NCBI RefSeq assembly: GCF_017571475.1
Contig: NZ_JAGETW010000001.1
Location: 62,001-126,000, forward strand
Reading direction: 5' to 3'
DNA from: Thiomicrorhabdus sp. 6S3-12
GTDB taxonomy: Bacteria > Pseudomonadota > Gammaproteobacteria > Thiomicrospirales > Thiomicrospiraceae
DNA length: 64,000 bases
How positions within the stretch are numbered: the first letter of the stretch is position 1; the number at the start of each line of letters is the position of its first letter. Below are positions 31,171 to 38,541 of the stretch, piece by piece. The notes beneath the pieces were generated by a model. The model was not told where the DNA came from, made no database searches, and worked only from the letters and a program-made list of their open reading frames with translations. Position numbers and translations under genes: made by a program.

Positions 31171-32523
31171 GTGAGTAATAGCAATATCGACAAAAAGACC
31201 ATTACCGATCAGCTTCTCAATGCCGTCAAGGACCAAAACCTTGAATTGATCTCCTCTTTGAGCAACCAGTTTGTTGCCGAAGAACTCGCTGAACTGTTGG
31301 AATCCACACCACCGAAAGAACGTTCTGTCCTTTGGAGTGCCATAGCGGCAGAAATTCAGGGGGAAATTCTTACCCACCTGAACGAAGAGGTGCGAGCCAA
31401 CCTGCTCGGCGAACTGGAAACGCATGAAATTGTCGAAATCACCGAAGAGCTGGCTGTCGACGATATCGTGGATATCGCCCAGTCTCTGGAGCAAAAAGAG
31501 CAGATCGAGTTTGTCGAATCCCTTGGCGAAGAAAACCGCGAAGCAGTGCAGATGGTACTGGCCTTCGAGGAGAATACCGCCGGTGGTTTAATGAGTACGG
31601 ATTTCATCTCGGTTCGTGCCGACGTAACCCTCGGAGTCGTACTACGTTACCTTCGTCAGCTTGGAGACCTGCCACCGTCAACAACCGCCCTGCTGGTTCG
31701 AGACCGCGATGACCACTATGTCGGCTCTTTACAGCTGCGTTACCTGCTGACTCATGATGAGGACAGCGAAGTACATGAATTCGTTGATCAATTGGTACCG
31801 GCAATCAACGTTTATACCTCGGCCAAAGAAGTCGCACACCTGTTCGAAAAACAGGATTTGATTTTCGCACCAGTGGTCGACGACCAGAACCGAATTCTCG
31901 GCCGTATTACCATCGATGACGTGGTCGATATCATCCGTGACGAAGCGGAACACGAACGTATGGCCAGCGCGGGTCTGGACGAGGACGAAGATATCTTCTC
32001 GCCGCCGAGCCGTTCGGCCAAACGCCGCACTTTCTGGCTTGGTATCAATCTGCTGACGGCGATTTTCGCCTCGATCGTGATCGGTCTGTTTGACGCTTCA
32101 ATTGAAAAAGTCGTTGCGCTGGCGGTGCTGATGCCGATTATTGCCAGTATGGGGGGAATTGCCGGAACTCAGACGGCGACGATTGTCATTCGCGCTCTGG
32201 CGACCGGAAAGCTCGGGAAATCTAACAGCCGTTCATTGCTGATTAAAGAATCGACGGTCGGTCTGTATAACGGTTTAATCTGGGCGGTTCTGACTGGCGC
32301 GGCGGTGATGCTCTGGTTCCAGGACTGGCAACTAAGCGCTATTTTCGCTACCGCCATGATGGTCAACCTGCTGGCTGCGGCCTTTGCCGGCGCAATGATT
32401 CCGCTGATTTTGCAGCGCATGCGTATCGACCCGGCTCTGGCTTCCGGCCTCATGCTGACAACCGTTACCGATTCGCTGGGGTTCTTCGTATTCCTCGGTT
32501 TGGCGACGATCGTCCTGCTGTAA
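31171..32523 (+). CDS. mgtE: Magnesium transporter MgtE
   Basis: MgtE is a Mg-gated Mg channel. The 450-residue protein has an N-terminal superhelical MgtE_N domain (about residues 30-130), tandem CBS domains (FEENTAGGLMSTDFISV and APVVDDQNRILGRITIDDVVDII), and five C-terminal helices from about residue 285 with the pore-type segment AGTQTATIVIRALATG. I use GTG 31171 as start; the frame has no better-placed ATG. It runs convergently into the HAD gene of the DprE-like cassette with 7 bases between stops. The leader (30951-31170) has no recognised Mg riboswitch. Confidence 0.92.
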   Translation: MSNSNIDKKTITDQLLNAVKDQNLELISSLSNQFVAEELAELLESTPPKERSVLWSAIAAEIQGEILTHLNEEVRANLLGELETHEIVEITEELAVDDIVDIAQSLEQKEQIEFVESLGEENREAVQMVLAFEENTAGGLMSTDFISVRADVTLGVVLRYLRQLGDLPPSTTALLVRDRDDHYVGSLQLRYLLTHDEDSEVHEFVDQLVPAINVYTSAKEVAHLFEKQDLIFAPVVDDQNRILGRITIDDVVDIIRDEAEHERMASAGLDEDEDIFSPPSRSAKRRTFWLGINLLTAIFASIVIGLFDASIEKVVALAVLMPIIASMGGIAGTQTATIVIRALATGKLGKSNSRSLLIKESTVGLYNGLIWAVLTGAAVMLWFQDWQLSAIFATAMMVNLLAAAFAGAMIPLILQRMRIDPALASGLMLTTVTDSLGFFVFLGLATIVLL

Positions 32524-32530
32524 GCGGAAA

Positions 32531-33166
32531 TTATTCGAAAACGCGATAATAACTTTTATCGGCCAGCGCCAACATCGGTTTATCACCGGACGAGTCGCCA
32601 TAGGCATGGACAAAATCAAACTGATCAAGGGCATAACGCTGCTTGATGCGGCGTACCTTCTCTTGTCCATAACAGTTATTGCCGTCAAATTTACCGCTCA
32701 AGACACCATTGTCGGCAGCAAATTCTGTTGCGATCAGCTCGAAACCTTTTTGCTCGCACCAAGGCTCGAGCCAATTGCGCAGGGAAGCTGAAATAACAAC
32801 GATTGTCGCGCCCTGCTGCTGATAGTTTTCAATCGCCTGTTGCGCTTTCGGGCGCAACAGCAGCTCAATCCGGCTTAAAGAATACTCCCTGGCAAGCGTA
32901 TTAAAACGCGCCACATCCCAGCCTCGAAAAAAATGGCCGAGAAGCTTTTCTTTCGCCTTATCGTTCGGCATCAGCTTCATGACATACAAGCTTAACCAGG
33001 GTGACAGACACAGAAGCCCCCAATAATAGCGCCAGCGCCCGCAGGCGAACTGAATAAAATCCGGAAGGCTGTCTTTTTTGGTCAGAGTACCGTCAAAATC
33101 GAACAGCACCAAGCCCTTGCAGCCCTTGGAAAGGTCGGCAGCCGACGGAGAGATTTCTTGCGGCAT
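32531..33166 (-). CDS. HAD-IB family phosphatase (possible polyprenyl-phosphoryl phosphoribose phosphatase)
   Basis: The 211-residue HAD enzyme has motif I LVLFDFDGTLTKKDSL, motif II in IVVISASL and motif III Lys plus the Asp pair in YGDSSGDKPMLALAD. A cap region with SPWLSLYVMKLM, hydrophobic and perhaps membrane-facing, lies between. It is the last gene of a five-gene cassette with DprE2-, DprE1-, GtrA- and UbiA-like proteins. In the mycobacterial pathway a phosphatase acts between the UbiA-type transferase and the DprE1/DprE2 epimerase, and this protein is the obvious candidate for that role by context only. Alone, it could equally be a SerB-like or lipid phosphatase. Confidence 0.8.
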   Translation of the reverse strand: MPQEISPSAADLSKGCKGLVLFDFDGTLTKKDSLPDFIQFACGRWRYYWGLLCLSPWLSLYVMKLMPNDKAKEKLLGHFFRGWDVARFNTLAREYSLSRIELLLRPKAQQAIENYQQQGATIVVISASLRNWLEPWCEQKGFELIATEFAADNGVLSGKFDGNNCYGQEKVRRIKQRYALDQFDFVHAYGDSSGDKPMLALADKSYYRVFE

Positions 33167-33168
33167 GC

Positions 33169-33909
33169 TCAGATGCTCATCTTTTTAAAAATCACTTCTG
33201 GAATATGGCGAATAATCAGCATCACCAGCCACCAGATCGGTTTGACATAAATAACATTGCGCCCTTTCTGCTGAGCTTTTACAACCATTTTGGCAACCTG
33301 TTCCGGCTGCGCGGTCAGTTTCTCCGGCAGATCCATACCGGCAGTCATCTTGGTGGCGACAAATCCCGGTTTTACCGTCAATACCTGAACATCTGCTTCC
33401 GCAAGACGATTGCGCAGTCCGGACAGATAGGCACTAAACCCGGCTTTGGCAGAACCGTAGATATAGTTCGCCTTACGCCCGCGATCGCCGGCCACCGAAC
33501 TGATTCCGACAATAAATCCGCTCTGCTTTTGTTCGAAATCGGCTGCAATCGGCTCCAGGACCGCCACCAGCGCATTAAAATTGCTCTGCAAAATCTTTTG
33601 TGCCAAAGCGGCATCCTGCTGCGCCTGAGTTTGATCGCCCAGAAATCCTAAAGCCGTCACCACTCCGACCGGCGCCGGAGCAAGACCTTGATAAAAATTC
33701 GACTGCTCTTCCAGCTTTAGGGCATCCCATTCCAACAGGCGCACCTCGACTTGATGACGAATCTGCAGATCGCTTTGCAGACTTTCCAGGTCGGCTACAT
33801 TGCGTGCAGCCAGATACAGATTAAATCCCAAACCGGCATATTCGCGGGCAATTGACTGGGCCATATCGCTTTTGGCGCCCAGAATCAGAACAAACCCTTT
33901 ATCACTCAT
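33169..33909 (-). CDS. DprE2-like short-chain dehydrogenase
   Basis: The 246-residue SDR protein has a nucleotide-binding loop GAKSDMAQSIA in place of GxxxGxG and the catalytic Ser-Tyr-Lys as SSVAGDRGRKANYIYGSAKAG. That active-site block and the C-terminal VIYVKPIWWLVMLIIRHIPEVIF closely resemble DprE2, the NAD(P)H-dependent reductase that completes epimerisation of decaprenyl-phosphoribose at C2'. The adjacent DprE1-like oxidase supports this. The start at 33909 has AAGGA ahead of it; an ATG two codons upstream is possible. The real substrate is inferred, not shown. Confidence 0.83.
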   Translation of the reverse strand: MSDKGFVLILGAKSDMAQSIAREYAGLGFNLYLAARNVADLESLQSDLQIRHQVEVRLLEWDALKLEEQSNFYQGLAPAPVGVVTALGFLGDQTQAQQDAALAQKILQSNFNALVAVLEPIAADFEQKQSGFIVGISSVAGDRGRKANYIYGSAKAGFSAYLSGLRNRLAEADVQVLTVKPGFVATKMTAGMDLPEKLTAQPEQVAKMVVKAQQKGRNVIYVKPIWWLVMLIIRHIPEVIFKKMSI

Positions 33910-33924
33910 AATCATCCTTAAATT

Positions 33925-35241
33925 TTATAACCCCAATCGTACAGACTGCCGGGAATTCAATGTCTTATCCAGTCCATGCTGTCTGCGAAAAGCCCGGAAC
34001 TGTTCGATCTGCGGATAGCCTTGCTCGAAAACCGCTTTCGGCACGCGCGCATCCTTGGCCAGATAGAAACGTCCACCACACTTCACAACCACTTCATCGA
34101 GACGTTCCAAAAGCCCCCAAAGAGAAGGCTCAACCTTAAAGTCCAGCGCCAGGCTATAGCCTTCCATCGGAAAAGAGAGCCAGTTGGCATTATGCTTTCC
34201 ATACAACTTCAGCACTGCCAGAAAAGAGCCTTTCCCGCTTGCGGCTATGATCTGCAAGATTTCCTGCAAGCCTTGATAACTGTGCTCTTTCGGCAGGATA
34301 AACTGATATTGAACAAAACCGTCTTTACCGTAAATACGGTTCCAATTGGATAACGCATCCAGCGGATAGAAAAACTGATCGATCGACACCATCTGCTGAG
34401 AGATTTTCTTGCGGACCTTGTGATAGTACAGCCAGTTAAACGCGGACAGGGTCAAGCGGTTAAGCGCAAATTTCGGAAAGTTAAAAGGGATTGCAGGCCC
34501 GCGCGGAGAACGATAGTCCAGATCGCCATCAGTGGCAAAATCTCCGACCATCAGCAGACTGCGCCCGAGGTTTTTGCCTTTGGCCAGACAATCGATCCAG
34601 GCAACCGAATACGGCGATGCCTGATAGTCTTCAAACGCCGCGAAAGTCTCTTGCAGACTGGCCGACTTAATGGTCGTTTGTTCGATATTCTGCGATTTGA
34701 TCGGTTTTAACTGCAACCTTGCCTCAAGAATCACCCCAGTTAACCCCTGCCCGCCACAGGTTGAATGAAACCAGTCGCGGTTTTCATTCTCGGAGCAATC
34801 GATGATTTCGCCGTTCGGCAGCATCAGTTTCAGATCCAAAACGCTTTGACTAAAACTGCCGAAATGATGATGGTTTTTACCGTGCACATCGGAGGCAATG
34901 GCACCACCGACGGTAATCAGTTTCGTCCCCGGGGTTACCGCCAGAAACCAGCCGTGCGGAACCGCGACTTGCAATATTTCGGACAACAGAATACCGGACT
35001 GCGCCCGGAGTATGCCACTTTCCTTATCAAACTGTAAAAAGTGATTCAGTTTCCGGGTCACTATCTGCTTATCGGCAATTGCGCTGTCGCCGTAGCTGCG
35101 CCCGTTACCGTAGGCAATGACGTCACCCTCTTCATCCAGAAAGCCGGCAATTTCCTGGGCACTCTGTACCGAACACGCCTTACTTGTGCTGCGCGGAAAA
35201 CGCCCCCAGCCAGCAAGATTCTTTTGCGGACAAGACATCAT
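33925..35241 (-). CDS. DprE1-like FAD-binding oxidoreductase
   Basis: The 438-residue VAO-family flavoprotein has a FAD-binding loop AYGNGRSYGDSAIAD (about residues 43-57), a second FAD region GGAIASDVHGKNHHHFGSFS and the C-terminal KDARVPKAVFEQGYPQIEQF block. These are hallmarks of DprE1, which oxidises the 2'-OH of polyprenyl-phosphoryl-ribose before DprE2 reduces it to the arabino form. The DprE2-like gene follows immediately. The 5' end overlaps the GtrA-like stop codon. In other Gram-negative bacteria similar genes are linked to D-arabinofuranose on pilins or Nod factors. Confidence 0.85.
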   Translation of the reverse strand: MMSCPQKNLAGWGRFPRSTSKACSVQSAQEIAGFLDEEGDVIAYGNGRSYGDSAIADKQIVTRKLNHFLQFDKESGILRAQSGILLSEILQVAVPHGWFLAVTPGTKLITVGGAIASDVHGKNHHHFGSFSQSVLDLKLMLPNGEIIDCSENENRDWFHSTCGGQGLTGVILEARLQLKPIKSQNIEQTTIKSASLQETFAAFEDYQASPYSVAWIDCLAKGKNLGRSLLMVGDFATDGDLDYRSPRGPAIPFNFPKFALNRLTLSAFNWLYYHKVRKKISQQMVSIDQFFYPLDALSNWNRIYGKDGFVQYQFILPKEHSYQGLQEILQIIAASGKGSFLAVLKLYGKHNANWLSFPMEGYSLALDFKVEPSLWGLLERLDEVVVKCGGRFYLAKDARVPKAVFEQGYPQIEQFRAFRRQHGLDKTLNSRQSVRLGL

Positions 35242-35660
35242 CAGTGCGAATCCTGAAACTGGATAGCAGCGGAATTAAAAACAAAACGCCGGTCGAGAAA
35301 ATATTTAATCACATAACCGATCGCCAAGCCGACGACTGCGCCGACGTAGAGCGCGCCCGGCCATGCAAAGAGCCAGTCGAACAGCCACTCGGTACCCCAA
35401 AAAATAAAGGTTGTACCGACACCGGTCAGAGTGTATTTGGCGAATTTCTTACCGTGATCGCGAATATGTTCCGACTTGTCGTAAAAAATAAACCATTTAT
35501 CAAGCAGATATTTCATGATCAGACCGGCAGCGGTCCCCCAGAACATAGCGACAAACAGGTAACCGACGCCCTGATACAAAGCAAGACTCGCGGCTTGAAA
35601 CATCAGGTTCAACAAGGTCGCAATCACAGCAAACAGAATATAGCGTTGCGCCAGCTTCAT
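35241..35660 (-). CDS. GtrA family membrane protein
   Basis: The small 139-residue protein has four hydrophobic helices and the GtrA pattern (RYILFAVIATLLNLMFQAASL, then LDKWFIFYDKS and the C-terminal YVIKYFLDRRFVF). GtrA proteins are proposed to flip polyprenyl-phosphate sugars across the inner membrane. Here, between the UbiA-like transferase and DprE1-like oxidase, it is a good candidate to flip a polyprenyl-phosphoryl pentose. The GTG/ATG choice does not change the reading. The stop shares bases with the next start. Confidence 0.87.
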   Translation of the reverse strand: MKLAQRYILFAVIATLLNLMFQAASLALYQGVGYLFVAMFWGTAAGLIMKYLLDKWFIFYDKSEHIRDHGKKFAKYTLTGVGTTFIFWGTEWLFDWLFAWPGALYVGAVVGLAIGYVIKYFLDRRFVFNSAAIQFQDSH

Positions 35661-35669
35661 AAGCGATCC

Positions 35670-36539
35670 TTAGTAGAGAATCCAGACAAAAGTTAAAATC
35701 CATCCCAGAAGGCTCAACTGAACAAAACGGTCATGCTGAACCACTTTAGTCGGCGAACCGCTGTCCTGATAAACAAACGCAATTTGCAGATAGCGCAGAA
35801 CACCAAGAATAACGAAAAATGCCGTTAAATAAAGATATTCGCTGTGCAAGCGGGCGATGACTTCCGCGGAGGTGGTATAGAGGATATAGGCCATAATCAC
35901 CACCGAAGCCATAATCGCCATGGCGATATCGAGCAGTTGCAGGTTATAACCGTCAATCACCTTGCGCATTTTCTGCCCGGTTTCCATAAAGGTCAGTACG
36001 TCATCACGCCGTTTTGCCAGCGCAAGAAACAACGCCAGCAGGAATGTCATCACAACAATCCACATTGAAAGCGCCATGCCCGAAGCCAAAGCCCCAATAA
36101 ACAGGCGCAGAACAAAACCGATGGCAATCGTTGTCACATCCAGCAAAGCGATATGCTTGAGTTTAAAACTGTAGGCAATATTCAAGACAAGGTAGAGCAA
36201 TAGAACCCATAGAGCCTCAAGCGACAGACTCCCCATAATCGCGATGGCAATAACAGCCAGCCCTATCATCAGAGCAAAACCCTGTTGCGGTTTTACAGCA
36301 CCTGATGCCAGCGGGCGAGTACATTTTTTAGGGTGCTGGCGATCATCTGCAATATCGCGATAATCGTTAAGAATATAGATTGCGCTGGCACCCAGAGAGA
36401 AAGCGATAAAAGCCCAAAACACCTGAATCAGCAATTCCAGATTAGTAATCTGCAACCCAAAAAACAGCGGCAGAAACAGAAACAGGTTTTTAACATATTG
36501 ATGCGGGCGCATCAGGGCTATTAACGCTTTAATCGGCAT
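35670..36539 (-). CDS. UbiA-family prenyltransferase, polyprenyl-phosphate phosphoribosyltransferase type
   Basis: The 289-residue membrane protein has about eight helices and two Asp-rich motifs. The first reads ILNDYRDIADDRQHPKKCTRP followed by LASG, which is the signature of the decaprenyl-phosphate 5-phosphoribosyltransferase (mycobacterial Rv3806c) subfamily, rather than of 4-hydroxybenzoate transferases. The N-terminal MRPHQYVKNLFLF also fits. It is the first gene of the cassette and would attach ribose-5-phosphate from PRPP to a polyprenyl phosphate. The promoter lies in the gap shared with the divergent ompA-like gene. Confidence 0.85.
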   Translation of the reverse strand: MPIKALIALMRPHQYVKNLFLFLPLFFGLQITNLELLIQVFWAFIAFSLGASAIYILNDYRDIADDRQHPKKCTRPLASGAVKPQQGFALMIGLAVIAIAIMGSLSLEALWVLLLYLVLNIAYSFKLKHIALLDVTTIAIGFVLRLFIGALASGMALSMWIVVMTFLLALFLALAKRRDDVLTFMETGQKMRKVIDGYNLQLLDIAMAIMASVVIMAYILYTTSAEVIARLHSEYLYLTAFFVILGVLRYLQIAFVYQDSGSPTKVVQHDRFVQLSLLGWILTFVWILY

Positions 36540-36798
36540 AGTTCAATCGCAACAGTGATAAAAAATTCCCGCCTTCTGAGCAGACAAGATAGATAATTTC
36601 AAGAAGGCTAATATTAACGGATTTAAAGGTTAAATGCGCCCCCACTGCTAACCTTTTCAAAAAATCGCCTGAATTATTGAGCGCAGAAAGGATTTCGCCA
36701 CACTTTTCTGTTCAAATTTCATTAAAATGAAAAACATTCATACTCTCCAAGAGAGCCAAAAAACCTTTCTATATCAAGAAAAACCTGAGGAGTTTTCA

Positions 36799-37443
36799 AT
36801 GAAAAAACAGATCTTTACCAGCCTCGCACTTGTCGCAGCAGTCGGCTTAAGTGGTTGTAGCCAAAACCCGAATAAAACTAAAGAAGAAAAAGAGACTGAA
36901 GCCAATGTTGCGACAGTACTAGGGGCAATCGGCGGCGCCGTTCTGGCACGACAAATGGGCGTAGATAGCCGTACCGGTACCGTCATTGGCGGCGTTATCG
37001 GTGGTGTCACCGCGCGTAAAATTTACCAGGACGTCAATAAAGACACGGCCAACGATCCAAACACAAATGTAGAAGCGGTTAATATTGATGGGCAGGAATA
37101 CATCAAAGTCGATGTACGAGACGTTAACTTCCGCTCCGGATCTGCGCACCTTGACCCTGAAATGCTGGACCGTTTAGGGCCTGTATTGAATGCTCTGCGC
37201 AACTACCCTAATACCCGCGTTCATATCGAAGGGCATACGGACAGTGACGGCAGCCGAGCTTTCAATCAGCAGCTTTCAGAAAACCGTTCTAAAAACGTCG
37301 CTTTCTACCTGATGGATAACGGTATCAGCCGCGATCGCATTATCACTTACGGTTACGGTGAAGATCGTCCGATTGCCAGCAACGATACACCACAAGGCAA
37401 GCGTATGAACCGTCGTGTCACCTTCCTGATCAGCGAGTACTAA
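36799..37443 (+). CDS. OmpA-family peptidoglycan-binding lipoprotein
   Basis: The 214-residue protein begins MKKQIFTSLALVAAVGLSGC at ATG 36799, preceded by GAGGAG; the longer frame from 36727 lacks a signal. The lipobox LSGC marks a lipoprotein. A glycine-zipper stretch (VLGAIGGAVLARQMG, VIGGVIGGVTARK) is followed by an OmpA_C domain with the peptidoglycan-contact residues in VHIEGHTDSDGSRAFNQQLSENRSKNVAF and the final GKRMNRRVTFLI. This layout resembles YfiB/YiaD-like lipoproteins. It is monocistronic and divergent from the DprE-like cassette. Confidence 0.9.
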   Translation: MKKQIFTSLALVAAVGLSGCSQNPNKTKEEKETEANVATVLGAIGGAVLARQMGVDSRTGTVIGGVIGGVTARKIYQDVNKDTANDPNTNVEAVNIDGQEYIKVDVRDVNFRSGSAHLDPEMLDRLGPVLNALRNYPNTRVHIEGHTDSDGSRAFNQQLSENRSKNVAFYLMDNGISRDRIITYGYGEDRPIASNDTPQGKRMNRRVTFLISEY

Positions 37444-37584: not shown

Positions 37585-38541
37585 CTAATCGACTGATTCG
37601 ATATTAAACAGCTCCGCAGCGTTCTGATAGGCGATCTTATGCGCCACTTCCGGCGGCAGATCCCCCAGCCAATCGCGTATATTGCTCACAACCTTATCGA
37701 AATTTTCCCAACGTTGTACACTGTATGTGTCCACCGCCGCCATAAAGCGGTCCTGATGGGTAATAAACAGGTCTCGCCACTCTTTGTTCAGCTTGCCGTT
37801 ACTCAATAGCATGCCGTCTCGAACGGACGTATCGATATAAAGCCCTTGCGGGTACTTCTGTAACATCGCATTCAAAAAATCCACTTCTGGCCGCGTTCCC
37901 AGATGCGCCCATAACACAGTCGCCTGCGGATAAAGTTCGAATACCTTATCAACGACTTCGGCATCACCATGCACCTGAAGCGGTAACCGGTGTTGTTTCG
38001 CCAGCAGTACGACCTGCTGGAAAACGGGGCTATTAACCTTATCCTTAAACAGGTGCAACTCGCCGACACCTCGGTAAAATCCGCTCTTTAAAGCTTTCTC
38101 GGTTGCCGGAACAACAGCTGGATCGTCCATCCATTTAGCCTTGTCATGGAATCCGTGATAGAAACTGTAGAAAGGTATGATTCGCTGCGGCATGGCACGA
38201 TAAAGAATTTCCGTGCCGTCGGTCGGCGCGCTGGAAACCTGCGCAAACGCAACCTGATTACGGTCAAAAATCGCTTCAATTTGCTGTGGAGAAAAGTTCT
38301 GCACATCTTCCGCCGCATAGTGCAAATGAGCGTCAAACAGCTTGCCTTGGTAGACACTGCTGTCACTTTGCATGTTTGAATGGTTTGTCGCAGCAGAAGA
38401 TTCACTTGCCAACAAAACTTCGGGCTCATGCGCCTGAACGGAAGAAATTGATAGAGAGCCCGCAATAGAAATAAACAGGCCGCAATGCAGCCCTTTGACA
38501 ATACGTTTAAAAAACGAGATGGAAAACGCTTGGTTGACCAT
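37585..38541 (-). CDS. Exported amidohydrolase-family (TIM barrel) protein
   Basis: The 318-residue protein starting MVNQAFSISFFK has a long signal-like N-terminus (CGLFISIAGSLSISSVQA) and then an Amidohydrolase_2 barrel. Metal ligands appear as FDAHLHY, VGELHLF, LQVHGDA, LWAHLGTRP and AAVDTYS. I choose ATG 38541, which overlaps the wzz end; an in-frame ATG at 38583 is possible. It is the last gene of the polysaccharide locus. Members of this family hydrolyse or decarboxylate many substrates. A periplasmic one next to polysaccharide export genes could deacetylate or trim the polymer, but that is a guess. Confidence 0.78.
   Translation of the reverse strand: MVNQAFSISFFKRIVKGLHCGLFISIAGSLSISSVQAHEPEVLLASESSAATNHSNMQSDSSVYQGKLFDAHLHYAAEDVQNFSPQQIEAIFDRNQVAFAQVSSAPTDGTEILYRAMPQRIIPFYSFYHGFHDKAKWMDDPAVVPATEKALKSGFYRGVGELHLFKDKVNSPVFQQVVLLAKQHRLPLQVHGDAEVVDKVFELYPQATVLWAHLGTRPEVDFLNAMLQKYPQGLYIDTSVRDGMLLSNGKLNKEWRDLFITHQDRFMAAVDTYSVQRWENFDKVVSNIRDWLGDLPPEVAHKIAYQNAAELFNIESVD

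Follow-up and report, generated by a model that had tools for sequence, protein, structure and literature searches.

D-Arabinofuranose (D-Araf) has mostly been treated as a mycobacterial speciality and a drug target. A run of five genes in the gammaproteobacterium Thiomicrorhabdus sp. 6S3-12, coding for homologues of mycobacterial enzymes for lipid-linked arabinose, raises the questions of which sugar donor these genes make, how they reached their present site and which transferase uses their product. We analysed the 64,000-nucleotide stretch of DNA that carries them (the window), its genome of origin (G000; 2.55 Mb, 19 contigs), the sister genome G031 and the remainder of a genus set of 32 genomes, including those of Thiomicrorhabdus arctica (G002), T. 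chilensis (G004) and Thiomicrorhabdus sp. Milos-T2 (G013). We consider it probable that an imported cassette makes and flips polyprenyl-phosphate D-Araf, and that a retained native glycosyltransferase (GT-C) transfers it.

The window operon

The leftward run of five genes described in the initial annotation, encoding UbiA, GtrA, DprE1, DprE2 and HAD homologues, was confirmed with its key residues intact (Table 1). The junctions, in transcription order, are a 9-base gap, a 1-base overlap, a 9-base gap and a 2-base gap, and from this spacing the five ORFs almost surely form one operon, in which the DprE1 and DprE2 homologues are an adjacent pair. A divergent OmpA-like lipoprotein gene lies 187 bases from the start of the operon, and at the other end 7 bases separate it from the stop codon of a convergent mgtE. 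Further to the right, positions 37585–63956 hold a large exopolysaccharide/capsule locus, with Wzz, an SLBB export protein, Wzi, PglF/C/D-like enzymes, several glycosyltransferases and an ABC exporter.

Table 1. The operon at 32531–36539 and the genes that border it (window positions)
Feature	Position	Strand	Length and family match
UbiA-superfamily polyprenyl-phosphate phosphoribosyltransferase (DPPR synthase homologue), first gene of the operon	35670–36539	-	289 aa; NF008977 222 bits
GtrA-family membrane protein, presumed helper/flippase for lipid-linked sugar (role inferred)	35241–35660	-	139 aa; NF037976 148 bits
DprE1-like FAD oxidase	33925–35241	-	438 aa; NF053785 399 bits
DprE2-like SDR reductase, Tyr153/Lys157	33169–33915	-	248 aa; PRK07102 341 bits, NF053786 184 bits
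HAD-IB phosphatase, presumed pathway 5'-phosphate phosphatase	32531–33166	-	211 aa; TIGR01490 143 bits
mgtE, left border of insertion site	31171–32523	+	OmpA-like gene its neighbour in 28/28 other genus loci
OmpA-like lipoprotein gene, right border of insertion site	36727–37443	+	Pfam OmpA

Family scores and best PDB matches place the three enzymes with DprE1, DprE2 and DPPR synthase, as opposed to lactone oxidases, FabG and ubiquinone-type UbiA, in support of the original proposal of a polyprenyl-phosphate D-Araf-type donor cassette in a gammaproteobacterium. The runner-up family for DprE1 scores 58 bits, and the ubiquinone-type UbiA model 36 bits against the UbiA protein, for which the leading model is that of decaprenyl-phosphate phosphoribosyltransferase; the leading scores themselves lie under the NCBI equivalog cut-offs (399/500 for DprE1, 184/250 for DprE2 and 222/234 for the phosphoribosyltransferase). 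The best PDB matches are Mycobacterium smegmatis DprE1 (4aut, E 7e-76), DPPR synthase (8j8j, E 1.5e-36) and the DprE2 in 21gq (E 4e-31). The GtrA protein has three predicted membrane spans.

The residues of Rv3806c that bind PRPP and Mg2+ are K28, N73, D77, Q135, K143 and K208 (PMC10994848). Five of these six are kept in the UbiA protein, where K17, N58, D62, K128 and K193 correspond to K28, N73, D77, K143 and K208, and Q135 is replaced by N120. DprE1 retains the HGKNHH and KDxR motifs, including H120 and K396. The position of mycobacterial Cys387 is occupied by Ala365, which is invariant across eight aligned genus sequences; in M. avium an alanine at 387 accompanies natural benzothiazinone resistance (PMC6015584). 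Benzothiazinones form a covalent adduct with the cysteine, which an alanine does not allow. Sensitivity to covalent DprE1 inhibitors would therefore be a misleading test of the D-Araf idea. From its gene content, the window operon should make polyprenyl-phosphate D-Araf.

The phosphatase and the distribution of related loci

Phosphatases of differing families perform the dephosphorylation step in pentofuranose systems (PMC11127046). Of 63 loci in which UbiA and DprE1 both occur, a separate HAD protein is present in 26, a DUF212 protein in 11 and a long UbiA protein in six; none has two of the three, and the remaining 20, many of them on short contigs, show none. The HAD motifs DFDGT, SAS and GDSxGD are intact in the window protein and near-invariant in 29 relatives. 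By context and exclusion, the HAD protein is the best candidate for the 5'-phosphatase. A close kinship with a fused HAD-UbiA protein (L126) was considered and rejected, the match being a short one at the DxDGT motif (E 0.011); a distant kinship is possible.

The initial annotation placed related genes in a few Gram-negatives, which proved too narrow: a scan of genome contigs gave at least 574 confirmed DprE1 loci, the best 80 of which are from Campylobacterota, Thermodesulfobacteriota, Myxococcota, Bacteroidota, Chlorobiota, Vibrio, Pseudomonas and others. Such donor cassettes are not rare, but common among environmental Gram-negatives. DprE1 and DprE2 are paired in nearly all loci, and DprE1 is present in 24 of the 32 genus genomes. 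A literature search found no paper that connects arabinofuranose to Thiomicrorhabdus or DprE1 to Sulfurimonas.

Insertion site and origin of the donor genes

Most genus members carry their donor genes at another site, between EF-P/EpmA/EpmB and a DTW-type gene (names read from the sequences) and beside an MSHA-type pilus assembly cluster. This genus-type locus comprises genes for a GT-C, a PAP2 protein of the divergent DUF212 family and UbiA, with GtrA, DprE1 and DprE2 transcribed divergently from them; a second GT-C, an acyltransferase and a GT2-GtrA fusion are often present as well. At the EpmB site G000 and G031 have the first GT-C alone, ~50% identical to the other genus copies. Genus-type donor genes are missing from both genomes, including the DUF212 protein, for which a search found no homologue in either; their only donor genes are those of the HAD-type window cassette.

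Several other genomes vary at these sites. The genus-type set of G025 adjoins mgtE-ompA (L031), G022 has kept only a ManC-like gene of the larger locus between EpmB and DTW (L189:4763-6139), and in G030 and G005 all that is left there is the second GT-C and two further genes. The GT-C of G001 is split into two ORFs (L028, G001:C1:498872-500508), perhaps by a frameshift or a sequencing error.

mgtE and the OmpA-like gene are adjacent in all other genus loci examined (Table 1); G000 and G031 alone have the cassette between them. By MgtE their nearest relatives are G009, G011 and G021 (83–86% identity), which have neither the cassette nor the GT-C, and no GT-C was found at the EpmB site of G009, G011, G007 or G014. 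In the DprE1 tree G000, G031 and G030 fall inside a clade of 50 rows dominated by HAD-type cassettes (SH-aLRT 96), and 14 other genus DprE1s form a separate clade (SH-aLRT 96). A single origin for the window and G030 cassettes is conceivable, but they occupy different genomic sites and join at an SH-aLRT of 86 only. Forcing G000/G031 with the genus rows costs 112 log-likelihood units for DprE1 (p-AU 1e-70), 130 for DprE2 (p-AU 2e-43) and 254 for UbiA (p-AU 8e-38); these trees were quick and the constrained group was picked after the first of them, so that the p-AU values are not literal, yet the losses are large. The GT-C of G000/G031 is nested within the genus (100/99), and its grouping with Campylobacterota is rejected (54 units, p-AU 3e-4). 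The conflict between the donor-gene trees and the GT-C tree suggests that the donor genes are foreign to the genus and the transferase native. G+C content gives no sign of a recent import (cassette 49.4%, backbone 49.7%). Another sign of part exchange is the mosaic locus L077, where DprE1 and DprE2 are nearest to the window type and UbiA and PAP2 to the genus type.

A candidate partner transferase

In line with the initial annotation, the window holds no recognisable arabinosyltransferase or pilin gene: searches gave neither an N-methyl pilin nor any GT-C belonging to PMT_2, Emb or GT87. The genome search for an EmbC-like transferase that it advised had a negative outcome, the Emb family (PF04602) giving no match in the window genome but a positive control in C. 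glutamicum; no GT87 member was found either, in a search whose control passed the cut-off in one genome only. The likely arabinosyltransferase for the cassette is instead an ArnT-like GT-C outside the window (G000:C12:278112-279629; Pfam PMT_2), the one retained at the EpmB site. Two further PMT_2 GT-Cs in G000 flank their own GT2, and this pairing leaves the candidate as the orphan. Those two and their GT2 (G000:C13:6669-11480, L051) lie next to an LPG_synthase_TM protein, an arrangement suggestive of a second system for transferring lipid-linked sugars.

Across the 32 genus genomes DprE1 and the candidate GT-C occur together in 23, are both missing from seven and are discordant in two (Fisher p 2e-5, ignoring relatedness). 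The discordant genomes are G030, which has a HAD-type cassette without the candidate GT-C, and G020 (79% complete), which has the GT-C without DprE1. Because cassette and GT-C are adjacent in most genomes, the co-occurrence is informative mainly in G000 and G031; in G031 the two lie 1.3 Mb apart (2.017 and 0.714 Mb) on a contig of 2.595 Mb. GT-C homologues also occur within cassettes: Sulfurimonas and other HAD-type cassettes contain one that is 33–43% identical (a fragment in L100), which in L065, L068, L072, L073, L076, L079, L087, L093 and L094 sits between DprE2 and HAD.

The GT-C profile found no chain among PDB sequences, and only fold comparison gave a match. The structure predicted for the orthologue in T. 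chilensis, at a mean pLDDT of 84, is nearest to ArnT bound to undecaprenyl phosphate (Z 27, 419 residues, 14% identity), with weaker matches to protein O-mannosyltransferases (Z 24) and AftD/EmbB (Z 15.6). An ArnT-like predicted fold does not by itself prove the donor of the GT-C.

The G030 cassette lies among LPS-type genes (MsbA-like, HldD-like and three heptosyltransferase-like proteins; L016:1-12686) and is followed by a gene for a 358-aa seven-span protein with no Pfam match, a candidate new GT-C. As a partner for the window cassette this protein was set aside, a search without a positive control having given no homologue in the window genome.

Proposed pathway, acceptor and alternatives

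We propose that the UbiA protein would transfer 5-phosphoribose from PRPP onto polyprenyl phosphate and the HAD protein would strip the 5'-phosphate, after which DprE1 would oxidise C2 and DprE2 reduce it with inversion; GtrA may then aid the flipping of polyprenyl-phosphate D-Araf across the membrane, and in the periplasm the unlinked ArnT-like GT-C would hand D-Araf to a surface acceptor. The cassette probably entered the mgtE-ompA junction from outside the genus and would stand in for the PAP2-type donor genes of the genus, whose own GT-C was kept; we infer that this loss and gain, which may have come in one step or in succession, amount to a replacement. Candidate acceptors may be lipid A/core, exopolysaccharide (EPS)/capsule or an MSHA-like pilin, the first because of the ArnT-like fold and the LPS-type neighbours of the G030 cassette. 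The other two are suggested by neighbouring genes, the pilin by those of the GT-C and EPS by those of the cassette. Because the pilus cluster also occurs where the GT-C is missing, and the base composition of the EPS locus is different, neither neighbourhood is strong evidence.

The same donor and GT-C might serve a type IV (MSHA-like) pilin, as TfpW does in Pseudomonas. The GT-C adjoins MSHA-type assembly genes throughout the genus (the MshL match is above cut-off), and D-Araf glycosylation of pilin is documented in P. paraeruginosa (PMC12369383). However, the pilin genes of G000 are elsewhere, at C13:159-167 kb as opposed to C12:278-280 kb for the GT-C, and the variable presence of the GT-C beside the pilus cluster, a predicted fold closest to that of ArnT, which is a lipid A enzyme, and the LPS-type setting of the G030 cassette all count against a pilin acceptor, which we regard as unlikely although worth keeping in view. 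The C13 set itself (L193:3321-11402), in which two pilins resembling each other are accompanied by several proteins like minor pilins, is apparently the pilin half of an MSHA-like system, with the assembly half located on C12.

More improbable is a role for the cassette in the adjacent EPS locus (37585-64000) through an unrecognised transferase, with the distant GT-C unrelated. That locus (Wzz, Wza-type SLBB, Wzi, sugar transferases) starts ~1 kb from the operon, and published pentofuranose systems are often located at glycan loci (PMC11127046), but the window lacks a GT-C of the families sought, the G+C content of the locus is 40.8% against the values of the cassette and backbone given above, and in G009 the Wzz and Wza genes occupy this position although the cassette is missing. 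That the operon yields another pentofuranose, for example the ribose form only, with the epimerase half inactive or altered, we hold to be very improbable: the sub-cut-off family scores and the substitutions at Cys387 and Q135 could be read in this way, but M. avium shares the alanine, the DprE1/DprE2 pair is kept in nearly all loci, the catalytic motifs of the window proteins are intact, and DprE1/E2 homologues accompany Araf glycans (PMC11127046).

Comparison with known systems

The mycobacterial decaprenylphosphoryl-arabinose pathway (Rv3806c, Rv3807c, DprE1, DprE2 and Rv3789) has, by homology, the same order of chemistry, and shares the DPPR-synthase PRPP-site residues and DprE1 motifs with the window operon. 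The likeness drawn in the initial annotation thus stands for the steps but not for the phosphatase, which is of HAD-IB and not PAP2 type; the Thiomicrorhabdus system further differs in having no Emb-family transferase and an alanine at Cys387.

Three-component pentofuranose systems have been defined, and their DprE1/E2 versions are predicted to be for Araf (Kelly et al. 2024, PMC11127046). Common to these and the proposed pathway are a polyprenyl-phosphate phosphoribosyltransferase, a HAD-type phosphatase (presumed here), on-lipid epimerisation, a flippase and a GT-C (here a candidate). In contrast to their fused PRP domain and MATE flippase, the window operon has a separate HAD-IB protein and GtrA, and its candidate GT-C is unlinked. 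ArnT (GT83) has a fold like that predicted for the partner GT-C, whereas the donor here is predicted to be D-Araf.

In P. paraeruginosa the D-Araf cluster (PSPA7_6245-6251) is unlinked to TfpW, and pilin cassettes are swapped (PMC12369383). Both cases would have a donor cluster unlinked to the transferase and one half horizontally swapped, although in Thiomicrorhabdus it would be the donor half that changed, and TfpW sits with a pilin gene whereas the GT-C is beside pilus assembly genes only. The kind of cassette is thus already known; the present analysis adds that an apparently foreign donor set is paired with a native transferase that was kept, and it assigns a candidate GT-C. It is quite conceivable, if somewhat short of probable, that the GT-C common to the genus and to Sulfurimonas-type Campylobacterota is an unassigned D-arabinofuranosyltransferase family with a conserved envelope acceptor, and that donor cassettes (HAD-IB, DUF212 PAP2 or fused) are exchanged as plug-in modules while the transferase is kept. 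The putatively foreign cassette with its native transferase would serve as an experiment of nature, linking an orphan GT-C with the donor that it probably uses and singling out the GT-C as the gene whose loss would expose the acceptor.
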